Origin: a virus
IMG/VR virus record: IMGVR_UViG_3300028415_000003
Span: 1 to 64,000 of that record
Strand: one strand, 5' to 3'
Length of the DNA stretch: 64,000 nucleotides
Numbering within the stretch: position 1 is the stretch's first letter; each line of letters begins with the position of its first letter. Of this stretch, positions 1-55,300 are shown in pieces. The notes under the pieces were generated by a model. The model searched no databases, was not told the origin of the DNA, and saw nothing but the letters and a program-made list of their open reading frames with translations. Both the position numbers and the translations under genes were made by a program.

Positions 1-720
1 AATGGTTATCGTTCTCTCTACTCCAACACCACAGGAAGCTCAAACACCGCTAATGGTTATCAATCTCTCAACTCCAACACCACAGGATATAATAACACCG
101 CTAATGGTTATCGTTCGCTCTTCTACAACACCACAGGATATAATAACACCGCTAATGGTTATCAATCTCTCTTCTCCAACACCGAAGGAATCAGAAACAC
201 CGCTAATGGATATGCTTCTCTCTACTCCAACACCACAGGAAGCTATAACACCGCTAATGGTTATCAATCTCTCAACTCCAACACCACAGGAAGCTCAAAC
301 ACCGCTAATGGTTATCAATCTCTCTTCTCCAACACCGAAGGAATCAGAAACACCGCTAATGGATATGCTTCTCTCTACTACAACACCACAGGAAGCCGTA
401 ACACCGCTAATGGATATGCTTCTCTCTACTACAACACCACAGGAAGCTATAACACCGCTAATGGTTATCGTTCGCTCTTCTACAACACCACAGGAAGCTC
501 AAACACCGCTAATGGTTATCAATCTCTCCTCTCCAACACCGAAGGAATCAGAAACACCGCTAATGGATATGCTTCTCTCATCTCCAACACCACAGGAAGC
601 TATAACACCGCTAATGGTTATCGTTCTCTCTACTACAACACCACAGGATATAATAACACCGCTAATGGTTATCGTTCTCTCTTCTCCAACACCACAGGAA
701 ACAATAACACCGCTAATGGA
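1..720 (+). repeat. 51-nt tandem repeat array in the tail fibre
   Basis: The repeat starts at 1, 52, 103, 154 and so on to 664 (14 units), with a degenerate fifteenth at 715. Each unit encodes 17 residues. Variation sits at fixed places: residue 4 is R, Q or A; residues 7-8 are YS, NS, FY, FS, YY, LS or IS; residue 11 is T or E; residues 13-14 are SS, YN, IR, SY, SR or NN. The rest is nearly constant. The array may extend upstream of the window. Confidence 0.95.
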
Positions 721-3423
721 TATCAAGCAGGTAGATATATCGCAGACGGAACAACAGCTAATGAAATAGGCACATATAATACTTTTATAGGTTCAAATAC
801 AAAGGCTCTCGCAGATGGAGATACAAATGAAATGGTTATAGGGAATGGAGCTGTAGGTGTAGGCTCTAACTCGGTAGTTTTGGGAAATGATAGTATTACA
901 AAAACTATTTTGAAAGGCAACGTCGGCATAGGGACAACTAATCCTTCTGAGAAGCTAGATGTAGACGGAAATATAATTGCAACTAATTTGTCAGGAACTA
1001 ATACAGGCGATGTCACCCTCGCAGGAACAGGCACATATCTTTCACTATCAGGTCAAGCTATTACAGTAGATCCTATCACAGAGAGTGATATTTCAGACCT
1101 TGGTTCTTATCAGCCACTTGCTACAGTTCTAACAAATACAACAGCTTCATTTCTAACAGCACAGGAAACTAAACTAAGTAATATTTCAGTAACCCAAGCT
1201 GTAGACCTAGATACAATGGAATCAGATATAGCTGCTCTTGACCAAGCAGTAGTCTTAAAAGGAACTTGGGATGCTTCGGTAGGAACATTCCCTGGAGGTG
1301 GGACAGCACAATCTGGTTATTCATATATAGTTTCAGTAGGTGGCACAGTAGGTGGTGAAGTCTTTGTAGCTAACGATAGAATAGTAGCTATTTTAGATAA
1401 TGCCTCAACTACTGTATATGCTTCAAACTGGCACAAACTAGACTATACAGACCAAGTGCTATCAGTAGCAGGTAAAACTGGTGTAGTAACACTTGTAGAA
1501 GCTGATATAACAGATTTAGGCACTTATTCAACAGATATACATTCTAACATAACAGCTTTAAATGCTGTAAGTAATACTAATACAGGAGATGAAACAACAG
1601 CTTCAGTTAAAAGCTTATTAGGAATAACTACTTTATCTGGTAGTAACACAGGTGACCAAGACTTAAGTGGAAAACAAGATACTTTAGTAAACACTACAAA
1701 TATAAAATCAGTTAATGGAACTACTTTATTAGGTAGTGGAGATTTAGAAGTAGGTGGAGCAATAGATAGTGTAAATACTCAAACAGGAGTAGTAGTTTTA
1801 GACGCTGATGATATTAGTGATACTTCAACTACAAATAAATATGTTACAGTTGGAGATATAACTAAACTAGGAAACTTATCAGGAATTAATACAGGAGACC
1901 AGGATTTAAGTGGTTATGCAACTATTATTTGGGTAAGTAATAACTTCGCATCAGATAGTCACGGTCATAGTCAATTACACAATCATGTAAATAAGGCGGT
2001 ACTCGATGGAATTTCTTCTACGAATGTGAGTAATTGGAATACGGCATTTAACCAAAGAGGAAGTCAAATTGCAGGAGCCGGCTTAACGTGGACAGGAACT
2101 CAGCTAAAGGTTGATGAAGCCACAACAACACCATTTTACTACGATTCCGGATCAACGAAGATAACGAATTCAGTAGCAACGCATGATAGTTTATACTTAG
2201 GAACCGATCCTTACAACACGGATAATCCTTTTATTGATATTAATCCGGGATATCTTACTGTAGGAACAGGTATAAATGATTCTAATGGTTACGGTGGGGT
2301 TATACAAATAAATAATGAAAGCATTTCTCAATATTCGGCAAGAATGTTATTCCTTGGCGATGGATCGCAGAATACCAATCATTCTATTAGATTAGTAAAT
2401 CTAGGCCCGGTCGGATATGATGCTTTTACTGTTGATGTATACGGACATACAATGACGCAATCTGTTACTTTTGATACGACCCATGCCGTAAGCGGACCTG
2501 TTGCAGGGCAAATGTGGTATGATTCCGGAAGCCTGAAATATTATGACGGATCAAGTACCCAAACCCTGACTATAGGTGGTGGTAGCACACATAATCATGT
2601 TAACAAAATAACCTTAGACGGGATTTCATCAACTGAAGTAAGTGACTGGAATACAGCTTACGGGTGGGGAGACCACTCTACTCAGGGATATCTTACTTCT
2701 ACAGCTTTGTCAGGTTATGCAACTGAGACATGGGTAACAAATAATTTCTCAGGCAGCTCACATACACATAGCAATCTTCACTCTCATACAAACAAAATAA
2801 CCTTAGACGGGATTTCATCAACTGAAGTAAGTGACTGGAATACAGCTTACGGGTGGGGAGACCACTCTACTCAGGGATATCTCACTTCTACAGCTTTGTC
2901 AGGTTATGCAACCGAGACATGGGTAACAAATAATTTTACTTCAGGCGGAACAGTCGGATTGGATGATGGTACTGCTTTAAGTCCTTCTTTATATTTCAAC
3001 AATGATACAAATACAGGATTTTTTCTTGAAAGTGCTAATAATATTGGTGTAGCCACTGCAGGAACCTTTGAATTCAAATTTGCCCAATATGGTCATTTTC
3101 ACGCAGATGGAAATATCTTCTCTAAATCAACAAGTACTTCATCCGATATCAGGTTAAAGAAAAACATTGCCAATATTGAAAATGCACTTAATAAAACTAC
3201 CGCTTTAAGAGGCGTATATTTTGATTGGAAAGATGACAAAGATAATAACAGGAAGTTAGGGTTAATTGCCCAGGAAGTTGAAAAAGTCATTCCTGAAGTT
3301 GTTTCAGAGGATCGTCACGGATATAAATCAATGGACTATTCTAAACTTACAGGGATGCTAATCGAAGCTATAAAAGAGTTGAAAACCGAAATAAATGAAT
3401 TGAAAAATGGCACTTCAAACTAG
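1..3423 (+). CDS. Tail fibre, trimeric, with C-terminal S74 chaperone (5' partial)
   Basis: The frame is open from base 1 to a TAG at 3421, giving about 1,140 residues; the start lies outside the window. Parts in order: 14 tandem 17-residue repeats (core NGYxSLxxNTTG, bases 1-714), a GNVGIGTTNPSEKLDV segment common in trimeric fibres, a long shaft with GKTGVVTL-type units, a duplicated 63-residue module (2602-2936), and a C-terminal peptidase S74 intramolecular chaperone from the SDIRLKKNI motif at 3142 to the end. In this family the chaperone drives trimerisation and cuts itself off at the Ser-Asp of that motif. The likely role is host-surface recognition or adhesion. A second open frame over the repeats (2-769) is a by-product of the repeat composition. 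The last 17 nt overlap the next gene. Fibre identity is well supported; the receptor is unknown. Confidence 0.9.
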   Translation, partial: NGYRSLYSNTTGSSNTANGYQSLNSNTTGYNNTANGYRSLFYNTTGYNNTANGYQSLFSNTEGIRNTANGYASLYSNTTGSYNTANGYQSLNSNTTGSSNTANGYQSLFSNTEGIRNTANGYASLYYNTTGSRNTANGYASLYYNTTGSYNTANGYRSLFYNTTGSSNTANGYQSLLSNTEGIRNTANGYASLISNTTGSYNTANGYRSLYYNTTGYNNTANGYRSLFSNTTGNNNTANGYQAGRYIADGTTANEIGTYNTFIGSNTKALADGDTNEMVIGNGAVGVGSNSVVLGNDSITKTILKGNVGIGTTNPSEKLDVDGNIIATNLSGTNTGDVTLAGTGTYLSLSGQAITVDPITESDISDLGSYQPLATVLTNTTASFLTAQETKLSNISVTQAVDLDTMESDIAALDQAVVLKGTWDASVGTFPGGGTAQSGYSYIVSVGGTVGGEVFVANDRIVAILDNASTTVYASNWHKLDYTDQVLSVAGKTGVVTLVEADITDLGTYSTDIHSNITALNAVSNTNTGDETTASVKSLLGITTLSGSNTGDQDLSGKQDTLVNTTNIKSVNGTTLLGSGDLEVGGAIDSVNTQTGVVVLDADDISDTSTTNKYVTVGDITKLGNLSGINTGDQDLSGYATIIWVSNNFASDSHGHSQLHNHVNKAVLDGISSTNVSNWNTAFNQRGSQIAGAGLTWTGTQLKVDEATTTPFYYDSGSTKITNSVATHDSLYLGTDPYNTDNPFIDINPGYLTVGTGINDSNGYGGVIQINNESISQYSARMLFLGDGSQNTNHSIRLVNLGPVGYDAFTVDVYGHTMTQSVTFDTTHAVSGPVAGQMWYDSGSLKYYDGSSTQTLTIGGGSTHNHVNKITLDGISSTEVSDWNTAYGWGDHSTQGYLTSTALSGYATETWVTNNFSGSSHTHSNLHSHTNKITLDGISSTEVSDWNTAYGWGDHSTQGYLTSTALSGYATETWVTNNFTSGGTVGLDDGTALSPSLYFNNDTNTGFFLESANNIGVATAGTFEFKFAQYGHFHADGNIFSKSTSTSSDIRLKKNIANIENALNKTTALRGVYFDWKDDKDNNRKLGLIAQEVEKVIPEVVSEDRHGYKSMDYSKLTGMLIEAIKELKTEINELKNGTSN
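2602..2936 (+). repeat. 189-nt-period near-identical duplication in the fibre shaft
   Basis: Copies at about 2602-2747 and 2791-2936 differ at only two bases that I can see, both silent T/C changes. They encode the segment from NKITLDGISS through WVTNNF. Near identity in a fibre gene points to a recent duplication. A diverged relative of the same module lies near 1980-2040 (NKAVLDGISSTNVSNWNTA). Confidence 0.9.
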
Positions 3424-3877
3424 CGGTGAAATTACCTTTGAAGATATTTTTAATGAGCTTCAAGGCTCATTAACAATTCCGGATAATTTAACGCTTGAAA
3501 TGTTATGCACTGGCGTTATCGAACCGTTAAATCCTAATTCTGCAAACCAACCAACCACATCAGCCCCGTTCGATGTACAAAGTTGGTACGGCTATGATCA
3601 TGCAGCATCGAGTAATGTAGGGGTAATGACTTGTTATGCTGATAGTGACTCAAGTCGTGTATGCGCTGGAATCACAGGAACAGCAGATATATATTACGAC
3701 GATAGCGGTGTCAGTATAGCTTCTCTTGCTGATCTCGTGTCAAATGACATTTCAATATATCAGGATTCAGGATTAACAAGGCTTGCAGATCCTGCGTATT
3801 ATGGGGATTACCCAAGAGTGTCAGATGTATTTGGTTGGGATGGCGGTGCTTGGGCAGGCTCGGTAAATTGCAATTAA
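3407..3877 (+). CDS. Small fibre-associated structural protein
   Basis: 156 residues. The ATG overlaps the fibre gene by 17 nt, which suggests translational coupling. The N-terminus MALQTSGEITFEDIFNEL and the later SWYGYD resemble a short domain seen beside tail-fibre genes in many Bacteroidota phages, often written MALQSSGxISLxDI; this is recognised from memory of the family, not a search. The C-terminal half is rich in Asp, Ser and Tyr with Cys pairs and may be a small beta domain exposed at the fibre tip. No catalytic motif is visible. A virion role beside the fibre is inferred from position. Confidence 0.7.
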   Translation: MALQTSGEITFEDIFNELQGSLTIPDNLTLEMLCTGVIEPLNPNSANQPTTSAPFDVQSWYGYDHAASSNVGVMTCYADSDSSRVCAGITGTADIYYDDSGVSIASLADLVSNDISIYQDSGLTRLADPAYYGDYPRVSDVFGWDGGAWAGSVNCN

Positions 3878-3903
3878 CGTGTTAACTATTAAGAAGAAGA
3901 ACT

Positions 3904-4578
3904 ATGTACGATATTATTAAAGATTATTTTGGTTCAAATTTTTTATTGGTATTTGCTTTAATAGGAGTGGTTGCAGCACCCGTCACTGCTCTTATTCATG
4001 TATTACAGTATTATGAAAAAAAGGAAAGGCTAACAAAAAAAGAAATCTCATTGTATAATCTTAAAAATCATCACCTTTTTCAGTATTTCGAAAGGCTTAA
4101 ATTATATGACATTCAAACAATAAATTTTAATGACAAGACAAAAAGGTATATTTTTATTAAATTTGTAGAGATTAAAGTTTTGGCTTTTTCTCATAACCTT
4201 GAGGTATTTCTGAGAGGGTCATTAGATAAGCCAAACAACGAGTTAAAACGAGAGTTCTTAAACATTATTTATAACAGCATCAGGCAATACGAAGTTAATT
4301 TCTATAACCTTGCCCAAACTGAAGAGGAACTAAAAATACTGAAATACATTTACGACTCTTACCGGCAGGAAAATTTATCAAAAGGAAATTACAGTATTGA
4401 TATGATCAATGAGTTATTCAATGATGATAACATTGAAGATCCAATGATCAAGATTAATTATGCTATGTATGCACTCCAGATAAGATTCACTACGATTATT
4501 CCGGATATATCGAGGTCCATGCAAAATCTTAACAGCCAGTTGGTTGGAAAATCCATCCACGGTTATAAATTCAAATAA
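3904..4578 (+). CDS. Hypothetical protein with N-terminal membrane anchor
   Basis: 224 residues. One strong transmembrane helix at about residues 12-36 (FLLVFALIGVVAAPVTALI) is followed by a charged, mostly helical cytoplasmic-type domain with no motif I recognise. It sits between fibre genes and the lysis cassette, so a role in lysis or membrane interaction is possible but unproven. The sequence just before the ATG (AAGAAGAAGAAC) is purine-rich. I do not recognise the family. Confidence 0.6.
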   Translation: MYDIIKDYFGSNFLLVFALIGVVAAPVTALIHVLQYYEKKERLTKKEISLYNLKNHHLFQYFERLKLYDIQTINFNDKTKRYIFIKFVEIKVLAFSHNLEVFLRGSLDKPNNELKREFLNIIYNSIRQYEVNFYNLAQTEEELKILKYIYDSYRQENLSKGNYSIDMINELFNDDNIEDPMIKINYAMYALQIRFTTIIPDISRSMQNLNSQLVGKSIHGYKFK

Positions 4579-4595
4579 TAATTAAATATCGAGTT

Positions 4596-5636
4596 ATGAC
4601 GAAGAAAAAACGACCAATTATTGATCAAACACTTGAAATCGACCTGAAAGATTTGCAGTTGATTTATAGTGGAATCCAAACAGCCGACACGCTTGAAATA
4701 AGCAGTCCGGCATTCAACCATGCTCTAAACAGAGCGAAAGTGAAAATTGAATCCCAAATGAAGTCTCACAGCAAATCCATGGAACCAAATAAAAAATACA
4801 TGGAATATATAACTATACGCCGTGAGATTTGTGAGAAGTATAGCCTAAAAGAAAAAGGGAAAAAAGACAAGGATCAGTCTGTTGTAAAGCCTCCTATTGA
4901 GGGTGCCACTTCGGTTGATTATGTTATTGTAGAGGGTTATCAGGAAGACTTTAATAAGGAAATCGACTCCCTTGAGAAAAAATACGCCAAGGAAATCAAG
5001 GCACGAAAAGACTTCCTTGACCAAGAGGACGAACTTCTTTCTTCCAAAAGAAAAATTGATATCTATAAAGTAATTCCTGAAAATGTTCCCGAAACAATTA
5101 ATCTTGGGGTTATGGCTGCGCTTTATAAACTCATTGCCTTCAAAGCGCCAACCGCAAGAAACCTTAAACCAATCAAAATTAAGAAAGGAAAAATTCTTTC
5201 CATTTCGAAAATCATGCAGGATTTAGCTTCTGTAACAATGCCTCATGATTTTGTAGAAAAGATGGCTTTCAATTTATGGGCAATCAAAGAAACAGCAGAC
5301 AATCTATATCAGGAAAAAGCTTATGAAGATTATAAGCAAACAGAAAAATTACGGGAAGAACTTAGCACAAAACATTCGCTAAAATACAACCATAGTGGAG
5401 AGCTTGTTCTTTACAAAAGCAAAGAGGACGAGAAAAATTATTTTGCAATCAAAGATCAGGATGCTTTTAATAAAGAATTTAAAAAATTCAAGAAAGATCA
5501 CCAATCAACTTTTGATGCTTATGAAGAATGGTTAGAAGAAGAAATTACAATCAAAGGTTACACCTTTGACATTGAAGACGTTCCTGAGCTACCACGCGCT
5601 AAACTTGAATCAATTACAGAATTTATAGAAATTTAA
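4596..5636 (+). CDS. Hypothetical protein with an internal duplication
   Basis: 346 residues, highly charged and mostly helical. Two halves look related. Residues about 115-180 (DFNKEIDSLEKKYAKEI, then IDIYKVIPENVPETI) and about 290-340 (AFNKEFKKFKKDHQSTF, then FDIEDVPELPRAKLESI) share spacing and key residues, as if a domain had been doubled. No enzymatic motif is seen. The leader before the ATG reads ATCGAGTT, a pattern shared with several other genes here. The stop overlaps the next start (TAATG). Function unknown. Confidence 0.6.
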   Translation: MTKKKRPIIDQTLEIDLKDLQLIYSGIQTADTLEISSPAFNHALNRAKVKIESQMKSHSKSMEPNKKYMEYITIRREICEKYSLKEKGKKDKDQSVVKPPIEGATSVDYVIVEGYQEDFNKEIDSLEKKYAKEIKARKDFLDQEDELLSSKRKIDIYKVIPENVPETINLGVMAALYKLIAFKAPTARNLKPIKIKKGKILSISKIMQDLASVTMPHDFVEKMAFNLWAIKETADNLYQEKAYEDYKQTEKLREELSTKHSLKYNHSGELVLYKSKEDEKNYFAIKDQDAFNKEFKKFKKDHQSTFDAYEEWLEEEITIKGYTFDIEDVPELPRAKLESITEFIEI

Positions 5637-5833
5637 TGCTCAATATTATAACTAACATATTAGGAATCCTGATCATTCCATTTACAATGTATTCTTTCTA
5701 TACGCTTGATAAGATGGATGGTTGGGATTTTTTTTTGATGATGATAATTTCCCCTATTTTTCTTTATGTAAAAAGCAAGGGATTCAATACATTAATAAAT
5801 AAAATGGTAGATAATCAAATCTTAAAAAAATAA
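5636..5833 (+). CDS. Small two-helix membrane protein, candidate holin
   Basis: 65 residues with two hydrophobic helices (about 3-23 and 31-47) separated by a short polar turn (LDKMDGWD), and a lysine-containing C-terminus. Size, topology and position directly before the amidase gene match a class II-type holin, which would permeabilise the inner membrane so the amidase can reach the wall. The start overlaps the previous stop (TAATG), implying coupling. Holins share little sequence, so this is inferred from topology and context. Confidence 0.5.
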   Translation: MLNIITNILGILIIPFTMYSFYTLDKMDGWDFFLMMIISPIFLYVKSKGFNTLINKMVDNQILKK

Positions 5834-5879
5834 TCATTTGCTTTCTGATGAATAGTATGTAATTAAACAATAATGAGTT

Positions 5880-6602
5880 ATGGCGAAATTAAAATATTTA
5901 GTAATTCACTGCACGGACACACCAGAACACATGAATGTGACTCCGGAAATGATTAAGAGTTGGCACACCGATAAGAAACCCATTGGTCGCGGATGGTCGA
6001 GAGTTGGTTATTCTGATCTGATCATGCTTGACGGCACAATCAAAAACCTTCGTCCTTATGATGAAGATGATAAGGTGGAAGACTTTGAGGTAACCAACGG
6101 AGCAAGGGGCTACAACGGCGTATCACGTCACATTGCTTATTCAGGTGGCCGGGATGCAAATTCCCAGAAGCCAAAGAACACGCTTAATGAAGCGCAGCTT
6201 GAGTCTCTTGCAGAGTATGTCAAAGAGTTTATTCAGAATCATCCGGACGCAAAAGTAATCGGGCACAATCAAATCAATGACTATAAAAAATGTCCTTCAT
6301 TTAGCGTAGCTTTCGTTTTTGTAATTACACTTGGATTTCCGAAAGATTCTTTCATGCTTTCTGATTCAGAGGAAGAAATGTATCAGAAAGACAAGGCTCT
6401 AAAGAAGGAAGCTCCGGAAGGGTTAAATCCTGCAATTGGACAGGGAGTTGTCACAAGAGACGAAACAAGTCCTGATCAGAACCCTATAGGACCTAAAACA
6501 GAAGAACAGTGGTTCAAGAATGGACCGAAGGATTCCTATGGTAAATTTCACATGCCATTTAAATCTGGAAAAGGACAAATAGAATCTAGCGATGAAGAAT
6601 AA
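5880..6602 (+). CDS. N-acetylmuramoyl-L-alanine amidase endolysin (T7 lysozyme type)
   Basis: 240 residues. It should cut the amide bond between muramic acid and L-Ala in peptidoglycan. Residues about 3-145 form an Amidase_2 fold: His10 in VIHCT, Tyr44 in GYSDL, and the C-terminal set GHNQINDYKKCPSF with His129, Lys136/137 and Cys138, matching the zinc ligands and catalytic Tyr/Lys of T7 lysozyme. There is no signal peptide, so export would need a holin. An extra tail of about 95 residues, acidic and polar, is not part of the usual fold; it could bind wall or regulate activity. The last 11 nt overlap the next gene. Confidence 0.9.
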   Translation: MAKLKYLVIHCTDTPEHMNVTPEMIKSWHTDKKPIGRGWSRVGYSDLIMLDGTIKNLRPYDEDDKVEDFEVTNGARGYNGVSRHIAYSGGRDANSQKPKNTLNEAQLESLAEYVKEFIQNHPDAKVIGHNQINDYKKCPSFSVAFVFVITLGFPKDSFMLSDSEEEMYQKDKALKKEAPEGLNPAIGQGVVTRDETSPDQNPIGPKTEEQWFKNGPKDSYGKFHMPFKSGKGQIESSDEE

Positions 6603-7245
6603 TATTTTAATTTTTATATTAGTTGTAGCCTTATTTTATGTGGGGTGGAATTTTTTTGATAAAGAAGAAACTAAATTCGATATGGTAGAAGTTATTAAAA
6701 CTGACTCTGGGCTTATAGCTCGTGTAGAAATGTATGAGGATTCAATCAGTAAACTGGTTCAATCTAATAAAAAAATGAAAGAAATGATAGCACATGAAAA
6801 TGCTGCTATTAAAAATTTGCGCGACTCTCTTAAAGACAAGAAAACGCAAATACAAAGCGAAAGTGAACAGGAATCCATTGATCGTTTTTGCAAAAGCACA
6901 TTAGGAACTGTCATTCCTAAAATAAAATCAATTGACAGCATTCCTGTCATTGCGATAAAAAAAGCTAACGAACTTATTGCCGAAAGGCATCATTATAAAG
7001 AATTGTTTGAAAGACAAAAAGATAAAGTAACTTTGCTTGAAGGAATCGCTTCAAACAATGCTTTTATTATTAAGCAAAAAAACAAAATAATTAAAACTAT
7101 TGAACAGCGTAATTCCCATCTAAAATTCAATCTCGAAGCACAAGAAAAGCATTATAAAGAAAGGCTTCGCAAAGAAAATCTCAGAAATAAGATCAAGCTC
7201 GGAGTTGTGTCCGGATTAGCTGCGTTAATAATCATCTTTGGATAA
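6592..7245 (+). CDS. Coiled-coil membrane protein, spanin-like
   Basis: 217 residues. An N-terminal transmembrane helix (about 4-21) is followed by a long predicted coiled coil with periodic K/E (about 45-195) and a second hydrophobic helix at the C-terminus (about 200-217, LGVVSGLAALIIIFG). It overlaps the amidase gene by 11 nt. Position after the endolysin and a coiled coil between membrane segments suggest a spanin-like role in disrupting the outer membrane. A classic unimolecular spanin has an N-terminal lipoprotein signal, which is absent here, so the assignment is tentative. Alternative: a structural coiled-coil protein. Confidence 0.5.
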   Translation: MKNNILIFILVVALFYVGWNFFDKEETKFDMVEVIKTDSGLIARVEMYEDSISKLVQSNKKMKEMIAHENAAIKNLRDSLKDKKTQIQSESEQESIDRFCKSTLGTVIPKIKSIDSIPVIAIKKANELIAERHHYKELFERQKDKVTLLEGIASNNAFIIKQKNKIIKTIEQRNSHLKFNLEAQEKHYKERLRKENLRNKIKLGVVSGLAALIIIFG

Positions 7246-9183
7246 ATGTTTGTAAACGTCAACGAGTTTAGTCCTGTTCCAAAAAACGGTTACCCAGACA
7301 TTAATAGTGTCGAGTTTGAACAGTTTTGGCAAGAACAATTAGAGTATGTTAAAAATGGTTTTAGCGTAGGTGGGCAAACTATCTCTGGAGATCACTACTG
7401 GTATTTAAATTTTTGGAAGATACGTGGGTATGATTATAAGAAAGGCCGAAAATCCATTATAAGCCCACGATTTCTCGATATTGATTATGAATACTTTTCA
7501 TTGCTTGACCGTGCAAGGAGAGCAGGAAAAAATCTAATTGTACTTAAACCCCGTCAGCGCGGATTCTCATCAAAAAATGCGGCAATAATAGGCAAAGAAT
7601 TTAGCTTGTTTCCAGGTTCACAATCCATCATCGTTGCAGGATTGGAAACATATACCATAAATACAATGGGTTTTGTTCTTCGTGGATTGAACGACCTTGC
7701 CGAAACTGAGTTCTATAAGCGAAGAGATCCTAATCAGAGCGACTATATCAAAGCTTCTTATACCGATATTTATATTGATGAATATGGAAATAAGAAAAGC
7801 GTAGTAAAAGGGTATCAATCCGAAGTGGAAGCTATTACTGCTAAGAATAACCCACAGGCTGTATCAGGTAAATCACCTTCATTTATCTTATTCGAAGAGG
7901 CCGGTATATTTCAGCAGCTTAAAAAGGCATATGGATATGTCAAACCTTCCCTTGTTACTGAAAACCAAATAACTTCAGGTATAGCTATATTTCAGGGTAC
8001 TGGTGGAGAAATGTCACAAGGTGCTGAAGAGTTTGAATACATCTATTATAATCCAGACGAGTTTAATGCGCTTTCCTTTGACCTTACGGAGTTCGATTCT
8101 GAAGCAGAGCCAGGCGTTAAATGTGGTTATTTCTTCCCTGGTTGGAAGTATAAAATTATCGACACCAATGGCAATTCGCTTAAAGAAGAATCACTTAAGC
8201 AGATTGAGAAAGAACGTTTGCTTGTAAAAGGTGGCGACACTGAATTTGAAACGATTATTGCCGATCCATTAAATCCTGCTGATTCCTTTCTTCGCCGTTC
8301 AGGTGGCTTTTTCTCTAAAAGTCTTGTAGCAAGCATGAACGGCCTTAAAAACAACATTCAAAAAACAAAGAATCTTCAAGTTGCCCAAAAAGGAAGACTT
8401 GAATGGGTATATAAGAAAAAAGAACGTGACGGTCGTGAGATAAAAATTATTAACGGTGTTGAATTTGTTCCTGATGATGATGGCTTTTTTGAGCTAATAG
8501 AACGCCCTGCTATTGATCCGAATACAGGCAAAACCAAAGAAGGGTTGTATAAAATCGGTATTGACAGTTACGATAAGGACGAGGCAAACAGTAGTGATTC
8601 CAAGCTCTCTGTTTCCGTTTTTAAGGCTTATGAAAGTATCATGGTCGAAAACAACAATTCCTTCATTGCTCAATTATTTGTTCGTCCTGACGTAAATGAG
8701 GGGGGGGCTGAGAAGGCTTATGAAGAAGCAGCTAAAGTTTGCATGTATTTTAATAATAAAGCTCTTATTGAATGGTCGAATATCCGAATATTCAACTGGT
8801 TTAAAACTCATGGGTTTGAAAAATTCCTTCGTGAACGTCCTGACTTTGTGCTTTCCAATTGGATTCAAAACTCTACAGTTAACAACAGATACGGGGTAGA
8901 CCCTTCAACAAAAGAGGACTGGCTTTTTGAATTGAATGATTACCTGATTAAGAATTGGGAAAAACTCAGAATCTTAAGGCAGATAAACGCATTCATATTC
9001 TTCAAGCTTAATCCTAAATACAATTGCGATATCACAATATCATCTTCTCTTGCGATTGTACAAGCCAAGGAAGACATGCTTAACAGAATAAATGAAACTT
9101 CTGAATCCGATACGAAAACCGATGATTGGATTGAAAGTGGCAGATTGAAAGAGGACGTGCATGGTAACATCATTTTAAACTAA
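7246..9183 (+). CDS. terL: Terminase large subunit
   Basis: 645 residues. This is the packaging motor that translocates DNA into the prohead and cuts it. The ATPase domain has a Walker A-like KPRQRGFSSK (101-110) and a Walker B FILFEEAG with Glu217/Glu218. The C-terminal nuclease of the RNase H fold shows Asp440 in KIGIDSYDKDEA and further acidic residues downstream. Size and motif spacing fit crAss-like terminases. It starts one base after the previous stop (TAAATG). No small terminase is recognised nearby. Confidence 0.93.
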   Translation: MFVNVNEFSPVPKNGYPDINSVEFEQFWQEQLEYVKNGFSVGGQTISGDHYWYLNFWKIRGYDYKKGRKSIISPRFLDIDYEYFSLLDRARRAGKNLIVLKPRQRGFSSKNAAIIGKEFSLFPGSQSIIVAGLETYTINTMGFVLRGLNDLAETEFYKRRDPNQSDYIKASYTDIYIDEYGNKKSVVKGYQSEVEAITAKNNPQAVSGKSPSFILFEEAGIFQQLKKAYGYVKPSLVTENQITSGIAIFQGTGGEMSQGAEEFEYIYYNPDEFNALSFDLTEFDSEAEPGVKCGYFFPGWKYKIIDTNGNSLKEESLKQIEKERLLVKGGDTEFETIIADPLNPADSFLRRSGGFFSKSLVASMNGLKNNIQKTKNLQVAQKGRLEWVYKKKERDGREIKIINGVEFVPDDDGFFELIERPAIDPNTGKTKEGLYKIGIDSYDKDEANSSDSKLSVSVFKAYESIMVENNNSFIAQLFVRPDVNEGGAEKAYEEAAKVCMYFNNKALIEWSNIRIFNWFKTHGFEKFLRERPDFVLSNWIQNSTVNNRYGVDPSTKEDWLFELNDYLIKNWEKLRILRQINAFIFFKLNPKYNCDITISSSLAIVQAKEDMLNRINETSESDTKTDDWIESGRLKEDVHGNIILN

Positions 9184-9189
9184 CGAATT

Positions 9190-11727
9190 ATGAAAAATCA
9201 TTTTTTTAACGATTTGATCGCTCCTGAAAAAAAGAACCAAGAGTGGGTAAGAGGTAAAGCCTTGCAAATCATGAATGTAGCACAAAGTTCTTCACACCTT
9301 AAACAGAGAGACTATATTTGTTTTAAGTATTACAATGAAGAGTTTGCTGATGATGAGTCTTTTGATTACTTAAGAAAGTATGACAGCTATGTTATGCCTG
9401 CAAAAATCCGTTGGGTACCATTGGTTCGTCCAAGACTGCAAAGGCTGATATCTGAACTCTCACTTGTTCCTTTTAAGTATGATGTTCTACTTGCTGACAG
9501 CGAATCGCTTTTAAGAAAACATGACCGCATTATCAATGCTGTTCTCGATGAAATGGAGTTACAGATTCGTAATAATGCTCAGCAGATAACTACGCTTATT
9601 GGCGATATCAACAACAAAAAAGCACAGCTACAGCAAGCATTACAACAAAAAAACATGCCGCCTGAAAAAATGCAAGAATTGCGTATGGTAGTTGCCCAAA
9701 AGGAACAGGAGTACAGCGAAACCCTGCAGGGACTTAACTATCATCAAGGTATTAATTCAGAGCGATTAAATGCTGTTGAGAAAGCTCAGAAGTACGATTT
9801 TAAGGAAATGGAAGAAGTAGCAATGAAGAAGATTATCAAGGCCAACAATCAGAGATATAATCTTCATGCTGAAACAGTAAAAGCTTTCACAAACAAGCTT
9901 ATCAGCCAAGAGCTTTATTATGTCAATTATAGAGAAGGAGAGAAAGACCCCACCTTTAAAGCTGATAATCCTATGCAGGTATTTTGGGATAACAACAGCG
10001 ACAATGAATGGATTCAGCATGGCCGATGGGTAGCTCGTAAAGAATATTACTCACGAGAACAGATATATGACTTGTGGGGTGATCAAATGAATTCAGAGGA
10101 CATAAGAGAACTCACAAACCTTCCTTCCTCTCAGTATGAAAGTCCGAATGCTTTAATGGCTACCCCGAATGGAGCTATAGATACTGGCTACTTTGGAAGT
10201 AAAAGTAAAACGCAGGGAGTGCCTGTATGGTTTGTTTACTATCGCTCTCCAAGAAAGGTTAGGTTTAAGAAGTCACCTAATAAACACCTTCCTGAACGTC
10301 CGTTCACACATGTCATGAAGGACGAGGAAAAAGTAAAAACACAGAAAGGTGAAAAAGAAATAGTTCGTTATCCGGATGATATGTATCAGGCAACGATCAT
10401 CAATGGAAAAATCATTGTTGATGATGGCCTTTCTCCTTGTCAGGTAAGATCTCAGGATAATCCGGGGAGAGTGGAACTACCTATAATCGGAAAAAGCTTT
10501 AACGAAACGAATAAAGCTCCATATAGCATTATCTGGTCTACAAAAGATTTGCAGATTCAATATAATCTTGTCAATTATCACAAAGAATTGATGCTTGCCC
10601 TGGGCGGTGTTCGCGGTATTGTTATGGACTTGTCTCAAAAGCCCACAGCAATGTCAAAAGCAGAATGGTTTTATGACTTTAAGCGTGGCGTAGCATGGAT
10701 TCAGAGTAAGGATAAGAATGGCCGTTCAGCGCAGTTTAATCAATTCAAGACATTTGACAATAGCGTTTCTCCGGCCATCCAGTACCTTGATAATATCATG
10801 GAAAACATTCGAACAATTGTCGGTGATGTGACCGGTGTTACAAGGCAACGGATGGGTGACGTAGTGGATTCTGATCAAGTAGGCACTTCTAACATGGCTC
10901 TGCAGCAATCATCCATGACAACGCAAATTCTATATTATGAACATGAAGAAGTTACCGAAAAGGCATTAACCAGATATGCAAATATTGGTAAAGACAGCGC
11001 ATGGAAAGAAGGCCGGATTGATCACTTCATAAATACGGACACCAAGCAGCAGGAGATTATTCGTATTCCTAAGCAGATTGGCGAAGGGAAAGACTTCCTT
11101 ATTTCAATGGGTAATTTATCCAAAGAATACAAAAACCTTCAGGAGATAAAGCAATTGGCGTTTCGTTCCGGAGCGGCTAAGCACATGACCATGTCTCAAA
11201 TATCAAAGATGTACCGTATTGAAGACATTATTGAACTTGAAAAGACACTGGAAGAGTTTGAGGAAAAAGCCGCTGAACTTGCTCAACAAGCTAATATATC
11301 TGAAGAAGAAGCTAAGGCTGAAATGGCTATGCAGAAGATCAAATTCGAGAAGGAATACGATCTTAAGATTCAGCAGCAAGCGAATAATATGAAAGAGTAC
11401 CAGCTTAAGTTGAAAGAGAAAGAACTTGAAATCAAGAAAACTGAAATCATTGCTTCTATTGAGCAGAAACAACTTGAAATGCAAGTTAATGCAAATCTTA
11501 AGGTTGCTAAAATAGAAAGTGAAAGCGAAGTTGAGCAGGCGTACCTACAAGAGAAGAGCAGGGCAAATCAAGCCATGGAAGGTCTTAATAAGCTAAAACT
11601 GAAACTTGAAGCTATCCAAACAGAGATACAGGCTGTGAATGATGAAGAGAAAAGAGTCAGCAATGAAAAAGTAAAGTTTAGCTCAAACAAGCAAGGCGGT
11701 AGTAAAGAACATATAAATGACAACTAA
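9190..11727 (+). CDS. Portal protein
   Basis: 845 residues, directly after the terminase. The portal forms the dodecameric channel at the capsid vertex. The central part (about 240-610) has the mixed core typical of phage portals, including a helix-rich SPAIQYLDNIMENIRTIVGD segment before the presumed crown. Residues about 125-185 are a Gln-rich coiled coil, and residues about 690-845 are a long E/K/Q coiled coil. The length is close to crAss-like portals, which are unusually long. Assignment rests on order and overall pattern rather than an invariant motif. The leader is TAACGAATT before the ATG. Confidence 0.85.
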   Translation: MKNHFFNDLIAPEKKNQEWVRGKALQIMNVAQSSSHLKQRDYICFKYYNEEFADDESFDYLRKYDSYVMPAKIRWVPLVRPRLQRLISELSLVPFKYDVLLADSESLLRKHDRIINAVLDEMELQIRNNAQQITTLIGDINNKKAQLQQALQQKNMPPEKMQELRMVVAQKEQEYSETLQGLNYHQGINSERLNAVEKAQKYDFKEMEEVAMKKIIKANNQRYNLHAETVKAFTNKLISQELYYVNYREGEKDPTFKADNPMQVFWDNNSDNEWIQHGRWVARKEYYSREQIYDLWGDQMNSEDIRELTNLPSSQYESPNALMATPNGAIDTGYFGSKSKTQGVPVWFVYYRSPRKVRFKKSPNKHLPERPFTHVMKDEEKVKTQKGEKEIVRYPDDMYQATIINGKIIVDDGLSPCQVRSQDNPGRVELPIIGKSFNETNKAPYSIIWSTKDLQIQYNLVNYHKELMLALGGVRGIVMDLSQKPTAMSKAEWFYDFKRGVAWIQSKDKNGRSAQFNQFKTFDNSVSPAIQYLDNIMENIRTIVGDVTGVTRQRMGDVVDSDQVGTSNMALQQSSMTTQILYYEHEEVTEKALTRYANIGKDSAWKEGRIDHFINTDTKQQEIIRIPKQIGEGKDFLISMGNLSKEYKNLQEIKQLAFRSGAAKHMTMSQISKMYRIEDIIELEKTLEEFEEKAAELAQQANISEEEAKAEMAMQKIKFEKEYDLKIQQQANNMKEYQLKLKEKELEIKKTEIIASIEQKQLEMQVNANLKVAKIESESEVEQAYLQEKSRANQAMEGLNKLKLKLEAIQTEIQAVNDEEKRVSNEKVKFSSNKQGGSKEHINDN

Positions 11728-26155: not shown

Positions 26156-29100
26156 ATGCAAAGTAAAACAGAACAAACGCAAATAAATATACCTGAAAAA
26201 GAGTCTCTTGAACCACCAGAGCAAAAGGTTAAATCAAAGGATAAAGACATTAATTCTCAAAATAGCTTTCTGCAAGAGCAAAATGATGAGCCCCCTTTAA
26301 TGGATTTTTCGTATGCGCTGAGGGTATATGATTACAATATTGCTGATGTAAAGCAAGACGAACTTCGCACAAAGGTTACGTATGCAATGCCTTCTCCTAA
26401 GCAATTTGCAGAGAATAATCCCAGGCTCGCTAATGATGAAGAAGCCTTTAATACCATGTATTCTATAATAGAGGATAAATGGAGGCTTTATAAAGATGGC
26501 GATTTTTCTCAATGGTCAACAGAGGATATTTATGTTCCTGATAATAAGTATGGCGATTATTTAAAAAGAAAAACAGGCCAGAATTATCCTTCATTCATCC
26601 AGTATGATGATCCAAAACCTGTGTCACAAACAAGCCGACGCTTCCCTGGTATTGGTACTGTAGAAATTGCCACTGCGGATGAGGTAGCAGATAAGACTCC
26701 TTTTATAAAAGATAAAGAAGGAAGGGTTCTCCCTGTTGATTATGAAAACCTCGAAACACAATATTTCAATGATTTTAAGCGTGTGCAAAACCTTGAGAAA
26801 GGCATCGATTTTTTTTGGCAAGAAGCGAAAGATGGAGAACGCATTGCCGGAGACAAAATAAGAAGTGCATTAGGTCCACGACATCTTGAGAGTTCATGGT
26901 ATAAAGCTATACCGCGTGGATTGTGGTCAGGAACAGCACCAATGATGGTTAGAGGTAGCGGTCAGTTTATTGAGGTTATTGGCGATCTTATCGATCCTTC
27001 TGATCAGGATAAGTGGTCAGACCGTGTTGGCACAAACAGTTTAAATTGGGCAAATAAATACTCTAAACAGAATTACGATGAAATGGAAGGAGCTTTTAAT
27101 AACTGGAGTTCTTTCAGGTATCAGGTAATGAATGGTATAGGCCAAATTTCGTCTACAGTACTTCTGAACTATGCTACCGGTGGCATGTTCAGTTCTTTAG
27201 GATTATCCACTCAGCTTTCAGGAAAAATAGCGAAGCATTTTGGAATGTCTTTTATGGCGGCAGAAGCTGCAGGAGCCTTCAGGGAAGAGGCGAAAAATCT
27301 TGGAATTGGAGAGTTTGATTCTGCTCTATTGTTTCCGCTTATCATGGCAGCAACTTACGCTTCTGAAAGAGTAATACCCGCAGACTGGGAGCATCAAGGA
27401 TTCAGTCGTTACACAAAACGCAATCTTAGAAAGACTATTAATAATGAATTTAAAGAATACGCGAAAACGACAGGGATTCCTATTACTTCTATAGGGAAAA
27501 ATGGAAAAGAAACGCTTATCAAAAGATCTTTAAATAAATGGAAGGAAGGCTTTAAAAATTGGGGTCCAAAAAGTGGCGTTTCAAGAAGTTTTCTTGGTGC
27601 TTTTGATGAAAGTCTTGAGGAAATTGGAGAAGGGTACATGCATTCAGGAATTAAAGACCTGTATAACTTATATGCAGATGCAGAAGCATCAGAAACTCTT
27701 AACAGGTATAATGAGTCTTCATGGAAAGAGTCAGATAATCCTGATAAAATGATTGAAATATTATCCGATGGATCTGAAGTTGAAATTCCTAAAAAAGAAT
27801 ATGAGGCTATTCAAAAAGATATAGAGCTTTCCACAAAAATTAAGAATAAAGAAGGCGGGATGTTTGACGACACTTCGGTTAACTTTGAAGAAGGGGCGAT
27901 AGCTGGAATATCTTCACTGCTAACGGGATTACCAATCAATTTAATGCAACAAAGGAAGGAAGATAATTCTGAGAATAAATTTATTGAACTTGCTTTGGCG
28001 CTTGAAAACGGAGATATTAAAGATAAGGATCTTGACGCTGCAATTAAAGAGGCAAAAAAAGATGGGGTATTGGGCTCTAAAGTAGCAACTGAAAACGGCG
28101 ATGTCGTTAATGTTAAAGGAACAACTAAAGATGGGCAACCAGCCGAAACTCAAGCCAATCAATCCAAAAGAATTGTCAGGGAATCAATTGGGGTATTCCG
28201 TGATATTATTAAGCGTTACGGTATTAACTCAGCCGAAGTACTGAAAGCAACCATGGGCGATAAATCTGTTATCAAGGAAGCAACAAAAATAGCCCGTAAA
28301 CTTGATGAAGCTAAGAAAGCTCTTGAAGCTTTAGAAGTAGACCCTTCTATTTTCACAGAAGAAGACAGTCAAAAATATAATTCAGTTGAAGAAAAAACAA
28401 AGAAACTTGAAGCGGATGTTGAAAGGTATTCTAAAAAGTTTGCAGATGCTACACAGCCTAAGGAAGGTGGCAAATATTCCAAGACTTATTCGTCATTATA
28501 TTTTGAATCAGCACAGGTATTTTATGGAGCAGAAAAAAAACTCAAAAAGAAAATACTTGACAAAGATTTTGATGGGAAAAAATATGAAAATCTTACTCTT
28601 GAAGAGAGGGATAAATACAAAAAGAAACTGAATAAACAACGTAAGGATCTAGTAGAAACGCAACGTCCTCAAATTCTTCAGGATATTTATCAATTTCAAG
28701 CTTTAAGATCTGCTTCTGGAGAAGAGGTTCATAAACAAACCCAAGCGCTTTTTGATGAAGTAGCGGAGAATTATTTAAAAGAAGAAGAGCGAGTTCTTAA
28801 ATCAACTCAAGATCGTTTTGACAAATCTATATTGTCCGATGAAAAAAGGGAAAGTGTAGATAAAGCGATAACTGATTTAGAAAAACAAGTCGGAGAAATA
28901 GCCAATTATAAAGAGGGTAGCGAAGTATCGCTTTCTGAAAAGTTTGAAAATACCAAAAAAAGTTATCGGAAAATTCAAAACTTCATTGCAGATGTTGAAA
29001 TCGGTGCTCTTCATGGTGATGCAAAAGCACAGCAATGGTTAGGTGAACTCGAAGGAATGAGGGCTCAAAGTGAAGCAGCTGTTGATCAAGCTCTCGGCAA

Positions 29101-32100
29101 TCTTAACGATATGTTTGGCGAAGTCAATGAAGCGAATAAAGTTGATCCTGAATTATTAGATGCTGATAGAGAAGTTGCTAGTGGGAATACTGAATTATTT
29201 AATCGTTTAAGGAATAAGCGTGGCAAAAGCATAGAAAATTTAACAGTGGAAGAACAGCTTGAGGTGCTTAATCAAATAATAGAAAAGCATCCTGTTTTTC
29301 TTGATGAGAAGAAAGAAGATCCAAGTACGCTTGAAAGCGTATTTAGAAAATACAAGGAAATGATGGATAACAAGGTTGCAGTTATGAATCCTGCATCTAT
29401 GGAAAAACATCTTGAACAGATTAAAGCGGTCCTTACTACTTTGCGCAATCAGTTTGAAATGAATGTTGAACTGATGCAAAATGATATTGAAGCAAATGAA
29501 AATACAGCAGAGCACTCACCGCTTCGTGATAAACCATATCAAAGGATAGATCAAGGAACCAGACCGGTCCTAAACAAAGAAGAATCAATTTCGGAAGGCG
29601 AATCTAACTATACTCAGATTATAGAAAAAATTGATAACTATCTTAATACCGTAAAAGACGTAAAAGAATATGTAGCGCAAACAAAATCTTCTCGTGATTC
29701 TTACAAAGTAAAAGCTAAGTCTTTACACCTCGGGGCAAGAGTATTTGCTCTTAATGGATTTATGGAGATTGATTCAAAACTGAACATTAAAGAGCTTGAT
29801 GATATTGAGAAAGTGCTTAACGAGCACAATGTCAAAACGATAAACGAACTTCTTTACCTTTTCTCTAAAAGCAAAAAAGAAAAGCAAGAAGAAATACAAG
29901 GAGCAATAACAAAAATTGAAAGACTTATTGTTCAGGCTGAAACTTTTCTTGAAGGAAAGATGGATAATGTGCTGAAAGAATTAGCGGAAGGCGCAACCAC
30001 TTTTACTGCGCTTAAAGATTTTGTTTACGGATCGGCTATTTCGCCAAATGAAAACTCAGGGCTTTTAAGTGAATCAAATTTAGAAGTTGGAAAGAAAGAC
30101 TTTAATTCAGAGAATAAGAACACAGACCTTGGAGAGCTTTATCAATACATAATGATAAGCAAAGCATTGCAGATTAATCGCTTTGGAGGAAAAGATTTCT
30201 CAAAGGAGGATCTTTATGCTATATATCGTGACATGCTTTCAGAGAAAGAGCAAAAAGGATCTGATGAATTTGTTCCAAACTACGAGCAAGAGCAGGCCTT
30301 AATGGAAATCGTTTCTTTCTTGTTTGATCCGAAGTTTGATTCTTTTAAGAATTTCCTTAGTGAAGATGAACATGATACAATGATTAGAAACGGGCTTTAT
30401 GTCCGTGGCTTTGCTGGCACGGGGAAGACAACTATTGTACTTAAAAATTCTATTCAACTTCTTAGTAAGTTAAAAGGCCGGGGAGTTAAAGTAACAATAG
30501 TATCTCCTAATCGTAACCTTCAATCAAATATCGATAAAGATCTTCAAGATGTTTCAGAGATTGAAACGTCGAATAACATTCTTCTTAGTGAATTTCTTGA
30601 AGGAAAGGCAAGTATTGATCCAGATTCTGATATCGTTATTTTTGATGAAATAAGCGTTATTACAAGAGATCAATCTAATATCATCAAAGATAAACTTAAC
30701 AATTCTCAAATACCTTCATTATTTCTTGGGGATGATAACCAGGTTTCTGACTTATCATATACTGACGATCAAGGAGCTGTACTTACTCCAAAGATGCCAA
30801 TCATGGAGAAAACACAGCGCACTATTCCAATGACTGAGGTTTATCGTTCAGGAGTTAGTGATCTTCATTATATACAGGATTATTATCGTAACCTTAGAAC
30901 CACCGCTTCTGAAGGCGATCGCACCGATCTTCCAATAACTTCTTTTTCCGGAGAAGGAGCATCTATGAAAGGCGTTCGCTACATGGAAACTACTCAAGAA
31001 ATTGAAGAGGCATTCATGGATTACATGAAAAATAATCCAAATGCTCCTGTAACAGAAGTTATGCTAATTGTAAAAAATAAAGCTGAGCGTGACGAGTTTT
31101 TGAGGAAACATCCTGAATATGAAAACCATGTAAGAACAGTTGAATTTATTATTGGGAATGAAGAAAATGCGATATCAGGAATAGCTTCTAGGCATGTTTT
31201 CTTTGCTACCAATCCAGTTGTTACAAGTACTCCAAATGGAATTGTCACAGAGTCTCGGATAGGGCTGACAGGGGTTAGTCGTGCGTCTGAATCTCTTGTC
31301 ATGATAGGGAAAGTTTCAAAGTCTAAAAAAACTGATAAAGTTCCTGAAAGTGAGAGTATAAATACAGAAGAAATTTCAGAGATAAGACAGGAAGAAATCA
31401 GAAGACTTCATGAAATTACTTCTAAAAAAGCTCCCGGAAATAAAACGGACAACGAGGATAATGAAATAGATTCTAAATCAGACTTCCGATCAATTAATTT
31501 AACTGAAGATGGGAAGAATCAGGTAATCGTTGAATCGGAAGAAAAAATTAATGAGTTAAAAAACAAAGGAGTCAGTGCTTTAAAAGATCTTAATTCCGAA
31601 GATCCAACACTTACTCATATTACTGAATCATTATTTGAAAAAACAGGTAATGAAAATGCCAATACCCGTTCGAGAAATTCTATGGTTAAGGCTGCATTGC
31701 TTTATAATTTCAACTCAAGTGAAACAAACGAAAAAGCTTTCAGGGAAAGGATTCAAGAATACTTTGAAGCCACTGAAACAAAATATACAGAGGACGAACT
31801 TTTCAGTATTCTCTCTAATTCACTTTTTGCTTCTAAGGAAATTTTAGATATTCTTGATGAAGACCTAACATTGGTTAATCTTCCTTTTGTTTCCGGAGAT
31901 AAAATTGCTATGCCGGCTATAGTTAAAATTGTAGGTTACAGCAACGGGCAGCCGGTGGTTGACGTGTACGATTTTAGAATAACAAGTGGAAAATCTATCA
32001 CTAAACTGTCTGAATACGATAAGAAAAAACTTGCTGCTTATGCAGATATTTTAAGAGCGAATGGCCTTAAAATAAATAACCTTAAAATATCAAATATTGT

Positions 32101-49331: not shown

Positions 49332-50045
49332 TTAATATTTTGTGTATGTAAAATATTTGATATTAAAATCAGAGTATTCAGTATGACCTTTTGGTGCTAC
49401 ATTTCTAATCATGTTGTTAATCACAAGATTCATAGAGTATTCGTTTAAATAATCCATGGTAGATTTATTCGTAACGGTTCTAACAAGCTTATCATTATAA
49501 AAAAATTTTAGGCTGTCTTTTCTCCATTCCAAAGCATATATCATATGCGTTTTATTCGGTGATTTAAAGCCAATCCAATGATCTCGTGCCGGTGGTGTAT
49601 GTACGTAGTTTCCTCTGGTGTGAACATTTGATTCAATGTTGTAAAGCGAGGGATTGTTAATGCTTGGCCTAAAGTACCCAAAATGTTTAGAAGAATAGGC
49701 TTCGAATATATCAATTTCAGGAGGCCAATCCCCCCACGCCCACAACCAAAATGCCGGCCATAACCAACGGCCTTCAGGGAGCCTTGCTTTTATTTCAAAC
49801 CTTCCCCACGTAAAGTGTTTTAAACAAGAAATAAGACCAACAGCATTAATAGATTTTACTTTCTTCCCATCTATCTCAAATATTTTAGGTTTCCATTGAG
49901 TTAATAGGCTTATAGAACCATCTGGCCTGAGTATAACAGAATTCTTATCATAATACGCCTGTCTTTTTTCTTTGTGTATCTGACCCCAACGTTCTTGTGT
50001 CAACCATTCATATCCACACCACTGAAATGTTTTTCTTAATGACAT
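49332..50045 (-). CDS. Glycoside hydrolase family 16 enzyme
   Basis: 237 residues, the size of a single GH16 catalytic domain. The active-site signature ExDxxE appears as EIDIFE with Glu110 (nucleophile), Asp112 and Glu115 (acid/base), after the typical GRWLWPAFWLWAWGDWPPE run. GH16 enzymes cut beta-1,4 or beta-1,3 bonds in polysaccharides such as laminarin, agar, carrageenan or mixed-linkage glucan. No signal peptide or binding module is present, so it would act after lysis, during infection, or on a cytoplasmic substrate. It is in an operon with KilA-N and HNH genes and overlaps the upstream gene by 10 nt. The substrate cannot be told from sequence alone. Confidence 0.88.
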   Translation of the reverse strand: MSLRKTFQWCGYEWLTQERWGQIHKEKRQAYYDKNSVILRPDGSISLLTQWKPKIFEIDGKKVKSINAVGLISCLKHFTWGRFEIKARLPEGRWLWPAFWLWAWGDWPPEIDIFEAYSSKHFGYFRPSINNPSLYNIESNVHTRGNYVHTPPARDHWIGFKSPNKTHMIYALEWRKDSLKFFYNDKLVRTVTNKSTMDYLNEYSMNLVINNMIRNVAPKGHTEYSDFNIKYFTYTKY

Positions 50046-55223: not shown

Positions 55224-55300
55224 GTGGGTAACACTGTGTGAACTACCCACACACTAAAAAGATGTGTGGGCTTCCTGTACAACGCATAGCCTAATGGCTT
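55224..55300 (-). ncRNA. Candidate reRNA/omega-RNA and right-end structure of the TnpB element
   Basis: Just past tnpB on its own strand are CCCACACA (55246-55253) with TGTGTGGG (55263-55270), a perfect 8-bp stem, and an overlapping alternative stem GTGGGTA (55224-55230) with TACCCAC (55244-55250). A further small hairpin, AGCC-TAAT-GGCT, lies at 55288-55299. TnpB guide RNAs are known to span the gene's 3' end and the right end. Boundaries and guide are inferred. Confidence 0.45.

Follow-up and report, generated by a model that had tools for sequence, protein, structure and literature searches.

The viral record IMGVR_UViG_3300028415_000003 opens inside a gene for a repetitive fibre whose 17-residue units are nearly identical except at a few residues, and the question that this locus raises is by what process such an array is held constant at most of its codons and kept diverse at the others. 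The stretch of DNA analysed here (hereafter, the window) comprises the first 64 kb of this 70,813-bp 'linear' IMG/VR entry, and the array begins at its base 1. The last 12.8 kb of the record contain neither an array nor an exact terminal overlap, so that the two ends could not be linked and the far end was rejected as the other half of the fibre gene. A gene for an N6/N4 DNA methylase-like protein (PF01555, 4.8e-10) lies near the right end of the record (L007:11966-12781, minus strand).

The fibre gene and its phage

The following features of the window are relevant to the fibre and to the identity of the phage.

1-714, plus strand: array of 14 copies of a 51-bp (17-residue) unit, truncated where the record begins
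715-765, plus strand: degenerate closing unit (NGYQAGRYIADG... / NGYQAGRYIADGTTANE), directly after the 14 regular units
1-3423, plus strand: tail-fibre-like gene, 1140 codons in the record, truncated at the 5' end; open frame with matches to PHROG tail families
3142-3303, plus strand: Peptidase_S74 (chaperone of endosialidase) domain, residues 1048-1101 (PF13884, 7.4e-18)
7246-9183, plus strand: terminase large subunit, which places the phage near the crAss-like phages
61685-62482, minus strand: Sak4-like single-strand annealing protein (phrog_2872, 2.1e-53; AAA_24, 4.8e-9)

Since the record starts inside the array, the 14 units are a lower bound and the N-terminus of the fibre gene is missing. 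The gene has many PHROG tail matches and ends C-terminally in the Peptidase_S74 domain, the mark of an S74-chaperoned tail fibre, so that the preliminary description, which was made from the sequence alone, had good reason to speak of a tail fibre. On the 3' side of the array the gene also contains two near-identical 146-bp segments (window positions 2602-2747 and 2791-2936, plus strand), a pair deduced from crossed matches to contig L008 (98.6%).

A tblastn search with the terminase matched 144 phage records, all at less than 60% identity; the matches listed are mostly cr-series gut phages, and the tally includes 29 Flavobacterium and 29 Bacteroides phages. The capsid protein matches phrog_11589 (6.5e-29), and from the relatedness of the terminase and the capsid protein we read the phage as crAss-like. 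Giant proteins are usual in crAss-like phages, and the window contains a single open frame of 6,605 codons (26156-45973, plus strand). An IS605-type OrfB/TnpB-like gene (55291-56409, minus strand; PF01385, 1.2e-27; phrog_506, 4.6e-126) is found inside the phage, as is a Glycosyl hydrolase family 16 domain (49332-50045, minus strand; PF00722, 8.3e-13).

Constant and variable codons of the array

Positions 1-714 consist of 14 consecutive 51-bp units that are open in frame 1 and have the consensus NGY[RQA]SL[YNFLI][SY]NT[TE]G[SYIN][SNRY]NTA; the TRF score of 884 (14.2 copies) excludes chance, and 13 of the 14 units are distinct. The preliminary description had listed residues 4, 7-8, 11 and 13-14 as the variable ones among 14 near-constant 17-residue repeats, and this list is exact at the codon level. 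Residues 1, 3, 6, 9, 10, 12, 15, 16 and 17 are each encoded by a single codon in 14 of 14 units, residues 2 and 5 show silent variation only (GGT/GGA, 10/4; TCT/TCG, 12/2), and the amino-acid variation is found at residues 4, 7, 8, 11, 13 and 14. Among the nucleotide columns, 14 of the 18 in variable codons vary, compared with 2 of the 33 in scaffold codons (Fisher p = 2.3e-7) and with 2 of the 11 scaffold third positions (p 0.0027). The corresponding pN/pS values are 0.436/0.231 for the variable codons and 0.000/0.084 for the scaffold.

When two units of the window have the same residue at a variable position, they almost always use the same codon: only 3 of 196 such pairs are mismatched, compared with a mean of 129 of 196 (minimum 104 in 500 draws) expected from the phage's own codon usage. 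Such a near one-to-one relation of codon and residue is expected if variants have been copied between units, and it rules out independent random codon mutagenesis.

A homogeneous scaffold is found in other arrays as well. L116 has 11 units with a silent scaffold divergence of 0.000 and differences in 71.8% of the variable-residue comparisons; L154, L158, L226 (a bacterial MAG contig), L157, L102 and L100 resemble it, with silent scaffold divergence of 0.076 or less, and variable-residue differences among such homogeneous arrays are 47-78%. The arrays surveyed for this comparison include near-duplicate records and, on the viral side, a few loci fetched by a DNA pattern. The scaffold codons agree within homogeneous arrays and differ from array to array (e.g. 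GGG/GCG in L116 and GGA/GCA in L154). In the window array, silent scaffold divergence is 0.073 within the array and 0.165 to the nearest other array. Among 73 distinct viral arrays with at least seven units each, a set from which exact duplicates only were removed, the median silent scaffold divergence is 0.314 within arrays and 0.641 between them; in 29 arrays the internal divergence is lower than that to any other viral array, and in 12 it is less than 0.1. The medians for 89 prokaryote-genome arrays, likewise freed of exact duplicates only, are 0.503 within and 0.660 between. Thus, the homogeneous scaffold recurs but is not general.

Distribution of the repeat and its predicted fold

With the array as the query, relatives were found encoded in 133 viral-contig stretches and in 125 prokaryote-genome stretches, the best 80 of each being kept; most of the best 80 of 125 prokaryote-genome titles name Bacteroidota, and relatives of the array also occur in cultured marine phages. 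With the window terminase as the query, a match was found in only two of 16 other array-bearing records, several of which are fragments. The 2,477 distinct units share the plan xGxx[A/S]LxxNTTGxxNTA, in which positions 1, 3, 4, 7, 8, 13 and 14 are highly varied and position 11 moderately so; the constancy is partly imposed by our unit finder, which requires G at position 2, restricts positions 5, 6, 9, 10, 12, 15, 16 and 17 and leaves positions 1, 3, 4, 7, 8, 11, 13 and 14 free. The commonest residues at positions 3, 4, 7, 8, 13 and 14 are Tyr, Gln, Tyr, Ser, Ser and Asn, respectively.

An AlphaFold2 monomer model of the 14 units, built with 29 relatives, takes the form of a regular solenoid from approximately residue 57, although the model is weak (mean pLDDT 68.9, pTM 0.69, the first 56 residues mostly below 50). 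Searches of solved structures by sequence, with the single array or a profile, gave no match up to E 1, and Foldseek gave none in the PDB at E 0.001 or better. When Foldseek's list was realigned with VIA-align, the rows shown were of general parallel beta-helices, with no head of a trimeric autotransporter among them; the best Z score was 14.4 (rmsd 3.0, 211 residues), with the weak monomer model as the query. The seven BFVD matches at E 0.001 or better include two pieces of the Bodo saltans virus 'FhaB-like adhesion protein' and a Caudovirales protein. None of 30 array sequences matched the Pfam YadA families at E 0.1, and matches of some arrays to the Pfam families MgpC, DUF1720 and YopE were judged to be composition artefacts. 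The motif itself suggests a kinship with the trimeric autotransporter head.

Arrays in related genomes

The window differs from its relative L008 in the array and in two further features.

766-1008, plus strand: post-array segment, approximately 77-80% identical to its L008 counterpart
1009-1653, plus strand: 645 bp missing from L008, flanked by short repeats of the SGTNTGD and SGSNTGDQ types

Over 9.6 kb (window positions 1626-11244), contig L008 and the window are 99.55% identical; beyond position 1671 the identity is approximately 99.6%, with 35 differing alignment columns in 9.57 kb. Besides a cap-like unit, the L008 array has four regular units, compared with at least 14 in the window, and is trailed by NGYQAGRYIASG at the place of the window's closing unit. 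None of its four regular units is found in the window, and 4 of its 10 codon-pair variants are common to both arrays; because L008 begins just before its own array, this comparison covers the 3' side only. L096-L099 are 99.3-99.5% identical to the window, and none of them extends into the array.

L120 and L126, which are 94.2% identical over 6.9 kb with flanks of 94.6% and 99.8%, have 32 and 25 units, respectively. In the alignment of L126 with the second block of L120, which comprises 18 of the 32 L120 units, units are common in order and are interrupted by whole-unit gaps and variable-codon changes; on visual inspection, L126 begins with units like those of the first L120 block, which makes it possible that two blocks have fused. 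In L116 and L265, with flank identities of 93.4% and 89.4%, there are 11 and 7 units, and L116 and L270 have 11 and 5 in the block comparison. None of the four whole units of L270 compared, and six of its nine codon-pair variants, are found in L116. The 3' flanks of this pair are 99.4% identical, whereas the 5' side is 94.2% identical over only 189 bp, with a protein identity of 58% over 165 residues, which suggests a junction at the array or close to it.

The cultured pelagiphages HTVC111P and HTVC112P have fibres of 811 and 756 residues with arrays that are unlike in length. Of the first 120 residues of these fibres, 106 are identical, parts of the C-terminal end agree well, and 40-column blocks of the array agree in approximately one-third to two-thirds of their residues; the DNA is 89.3% identical upstream and 85.4% downstream of the gap. 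Both phages are recorded on Pelagibacter HTCC7211 despite their unlike arrays, and their single recorded host would count against the claim that the array alters host range.

In 35 block pairs, one flank or both reached 88% identity over 200 bp (a rule that excludes window/L008), and 30 of these pairs, which are not independent of each other, had both flanks so conserved. The arrays are identical in 22 of the 30, many of which seem to come from a single phage present in more than one sample, and the other eight pairs range from point changes (L131/L132/L133, L164/L165/L166 and the second block of L207/L211) to a changed unit number (L116/L265 and L120/L126). Since 22 of 30 flank-conserved pairs keep their arrays, shuffling is not fast.

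A comparison of repeat number and order across related genomes had been proposed as the check on modular shuffling of repeat units, and unit number and content are unlike in L008/window, L116/L270, L116/L265, L120/L126 and HTVC111P/HTVC112P; unit number is polymorphic between close relatives (at least 14 vs 4, 11 vs 5 and 11 vs 7). The notion of a modular surface stands in part and on indirect support: number and content differ between relatives, and there is one codon per residue, but the process is not fast and exchange often involves less than a whole unit, as the comparison of L270 with L116 illustrates. Our results support a variation that is modular and not made by a diversity-generating retroelement (DGR), whereas quick shuffling of whole units goes too far.

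Two side observations concern other array-bearing records. L124 (IMGVR_UViG_3300050015_000053) has arrays of 14 and 6 units at positions 6021 and 7386 whose surroundings match each other at approximately 89% over 827 bp, apparently as a duplicated fibre segment. L154 and L158 (IMGVR_UViG_3300028283_000005 and _000030), which come from one sample, each end inside an array of the same scaffold and may be the two parts of a single phage that was split there.

Linkage within the unit and probable exchange between phages

In 11 pooled arrays, linkage was strong within positions 3-4 and 13-14 (p 0.0005 each), borderline for 7-8 (p 0.057) and absent for 8-13 (p 0.44); positions 4-7 (p 0.001) and 4-13 (p 0.007) were also linked. 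Linkage shows no clean decay along the unit, which counts against the explanation that we favour below. In the window, 13-14 (p 0.0005), 11-13 (p 0.01) and 4-7 (p 0.03) were linked, 7-8, 8-13 and 7-13 were not, and four-gamete squares were few (0-3 per cassette pair, 0 for codons 2-4 vs 7). This mixed pattern indicates that reassortment is partial and that some blocks, such as NTEGIRNTANGYASL, which is present three times in the window array, move together.

Our first test for exchange between phages used loci fetched by a DNA pattern and was therefore rerun on codons 9-12, which lie outside the search pattern. In the ten records with the L116 scaffold, N/T/G silent differences were on average 0.346 in the flanks and 0.128 in array codons 9-12, and the array codons were silently closer than the flanks in 41 of 45 pairs. 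These ten were taken from 18 pattern-fetched records, the others being L263, L264, L269, L275 and L278 (without a run of three units), L261 and L266 (runs of three) and L271 (8 units, dropped by hand).

The scaffold codons are also atypical of the phages that carry them. In 77 viral arrays, again a set with near-duplicate records and a few pattern-fetched loci, CTC encodes 43% of Leu6 compared with 9% of the leucines of neighbouring genes (higher in 47 of 77), AAC encodes 72% of Asn9 compared with a background of 44% (61 of 77), and ACC encodes 49% of Thr10 compared with 19% (56 of 77). The contrast is weaker in 82 prokaryote-genome arrays, which include near-duplicates too (CTC, 0.23/0.13; AAC, 0.55/0.41; ACC, 0.35/0.33; above background in 37, 52 and 35 arrays, respectively). 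With such codons, the array DNA looks partly foreign to its phages. We prefer the view that the scaffold has spread by exchange between phages to the alternative of a constraint on the scaffold codons.

A proposed explanation and its alternatives

The explanation that we favour, with a probability of roughly 0.55, is that the tail-fibre shaft array of a crAss-like phage undergoes homogenization and reshuffling under diversifying selection. The array would form a repetitive fibre shaft, probably a beta-solenoid and probably trimeric, with its variable residues facing outward and an S74 chaperone at the C-terminus. Units would recombine with one another and with the arrays of other phages, and this recombination would homogenize the scaffold codons of each array, alter the number of units and bring short codon-pair variants (positions 3-4, 7-8 and 13-14) into new combinations. 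Diversifying selection on the binding target of the fibre, perhaps a receptor, would keep the variable positions unlike. The resulting surface would be changeable in small steps without a reverse transcriptase, possibly with an effect on the host. A phage annealing recombinase probably helps, and the Sak4-like protein is a candidate that may act on the array: recombination of diverged DNA is ascribed to single-strand annealing proteins (PMC5499656) and to Rad52-like recombinases (PMC3945230).

An alternative that we consider possible but rather unlikely is that the array and its neighbourhood are only ever swapped en bloc, the inner pattern being old and no reshuffling taking place at present. 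It is favoured by the difference between the window and L008, which runs approximately 940 bp past the array (to approximately 1653) as a diverged segment and the 645-bp absence, by the identical arrays in 22 of 30 flank-conserved pairs, and by L116/L270, whose agreement on the 3' side and divergence on the 5' side slightly lower the standing of homogenization and reshuffling and slightly raise that of en bloc exchange. However, the second block of L120 and L126 have their units common in order, with whole-unit gaps, inside conserved flanks, and a homogeneous scaffold with one codon per residue needs copying within the array at some time.

A bolder proposal, which we regard as unlikely, is that one 51-bp repeat forms a pool common to unrelated tailed phages, in which the scaffold DNA stays nearly identical because it serves as a recombination register and annealing recombinases pass codon-pair cassettes from phage to phage, so that the array would be a self-maintaining generator free of reverse transcriptase.

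It is quite improbable that the array is a structural spacer with neutral variation, its scaffold being maintained by the requirements of the fold together with a constraint on codons that acts at the DNA level or in translation. The recurrence of CTC, AAC and ACC as scaffold codons in other phages, against their own codon usage, and the stability of arrays in near-identical genomes agree with this view. However, drift would leave silent differences in the scaffold, of which the window has two columns, and would give several codons per residue, contrary to the three mismatches among 196 pairs; moreover, scaffold codons are unlike between arrays and alike within homogeneous ones.

We see very little likelihood that the pattern is an artefact of assembly, in which short reads joined inside repeats would give a wrong order or number of units. 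Unit order in short-read assemblies may indeed be wrong, the record has its first base inside the array, L008 begins shortly ahead of its own, and the L154 and L158 records each end inside arrays of one scaffold; but the unit sequences, the scaffold and the variable positions are independent of order, and deposited genomes of cultured phages hold whole arrays that are also unlike.

Least probable of all is a DGR located outside the record, which we rejected on the codon pattern and a reverse transcriptase search of the viral records: codon 7 is NNC in all window units and all regular L008 units, as adenine editing of AAC would give, and the record is a fragment, but the adenines of the constant AAT1, AAC9, ACC10, AAC15 and ACC16 are unchanged across 14 units, codons 4, 13 and 14 vary at all three bases, there is one codon per residue, and the variation is not confined to template adenines as it would be in a DGR target. 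PF00078 had no match in this record (a fragment) or in ten other array-bearing viral records, several of them fragments, whereas 3 of 14 control genomes were matched; the codon pattern and this search bear out the initial remark that no reverse transcriptase is visible and a DGR is not indicated. The single reverse transcriptase match among the queried records was in the bacterial genome of L226.

Similar systems and implications

Near-identical repeats that differ at two residues are known from TAL effectors, which are DNA-binding activators of plant genes and, as proteins, unrelated to the phage array. The heads of YadA and UspA1 consist of a short glycine/alanine-rich repeat and are thought to be trimeric left-handed beta-rolls. 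The head repeat of trimeric autotransporter adhesins has approximately 14 residues; the phage array has a 17-residue repeat, no Pfam YadA match and an S74 end in place of the membrane anchor. In the gp38 adhesins of T-even phages, recombination takes place at glycine-rich motifs. The S16-type gp38 adhesins are described as having glycine-rich constant motifs that alternate with hypervariable distal loops (PMC6851490), and in this interspersion of constant motifs with short hypervariable segments they are like the array, although gp38 is a single tip adhesin and the array a long tandem.

A marine phage fibre described in 2014 has a C-terminal YadA-like part with low metagenomic recruitment (PMC3909814). 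The likeness lies in a YadA-like region that is reported to be more variable than the rest of the gene, which was read as host recognition, and the S74 domain is named in the same figure legend as this region. That report concerns different phages, and among the fibres compared here the codon-level analysis of scaffold and variable positions applies to our arrays only. We recognized no account of concerted evolution of phage tail-fibre repeats in the open-access papers searched, which is weak evidence of novelty as subscription papers are mostly outside this set; the apparent novelty lies in the codon-level signature, which recurs in several phages.

Another similar system is that of the WD40 repeats of the hnwd genes (HET-D/HET-E) of Podospora anserina, in which, by the published accounts, unequal crossing-over or conversion keeps the repeats alike and fit for exchange while selection holds a few positions diverse (PMC1805685; PMC2873952). 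As described there, these genes have in common with the phage array repeats that are homogenized at the DNA level, a few diversifying codon positions, polymorphism of repeat number and redistribution between units and genes. The units of the window array are likewise silently closer to each other than to those of other genomes. The hnwd repeats differ in forming the beta-propeller of a fungal intracellular receptor, and their role in specificity and their instability are reported as proven experimentally, whereas the phage array is known from sequence alone.

If the proposed explanation is right, the silent-site identity between units, combined with saturated variable codons, would provide a simple search signature, and the tendency of some contigs to end in such fibre genes would be partly explained. 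The link between array content and host would be testable in the cultured pelagiphages that carry relatives of the array. Many environmental phages would then vary the surface of their fibres by the logic of fungal recognition genes and not by that of a retroelement.
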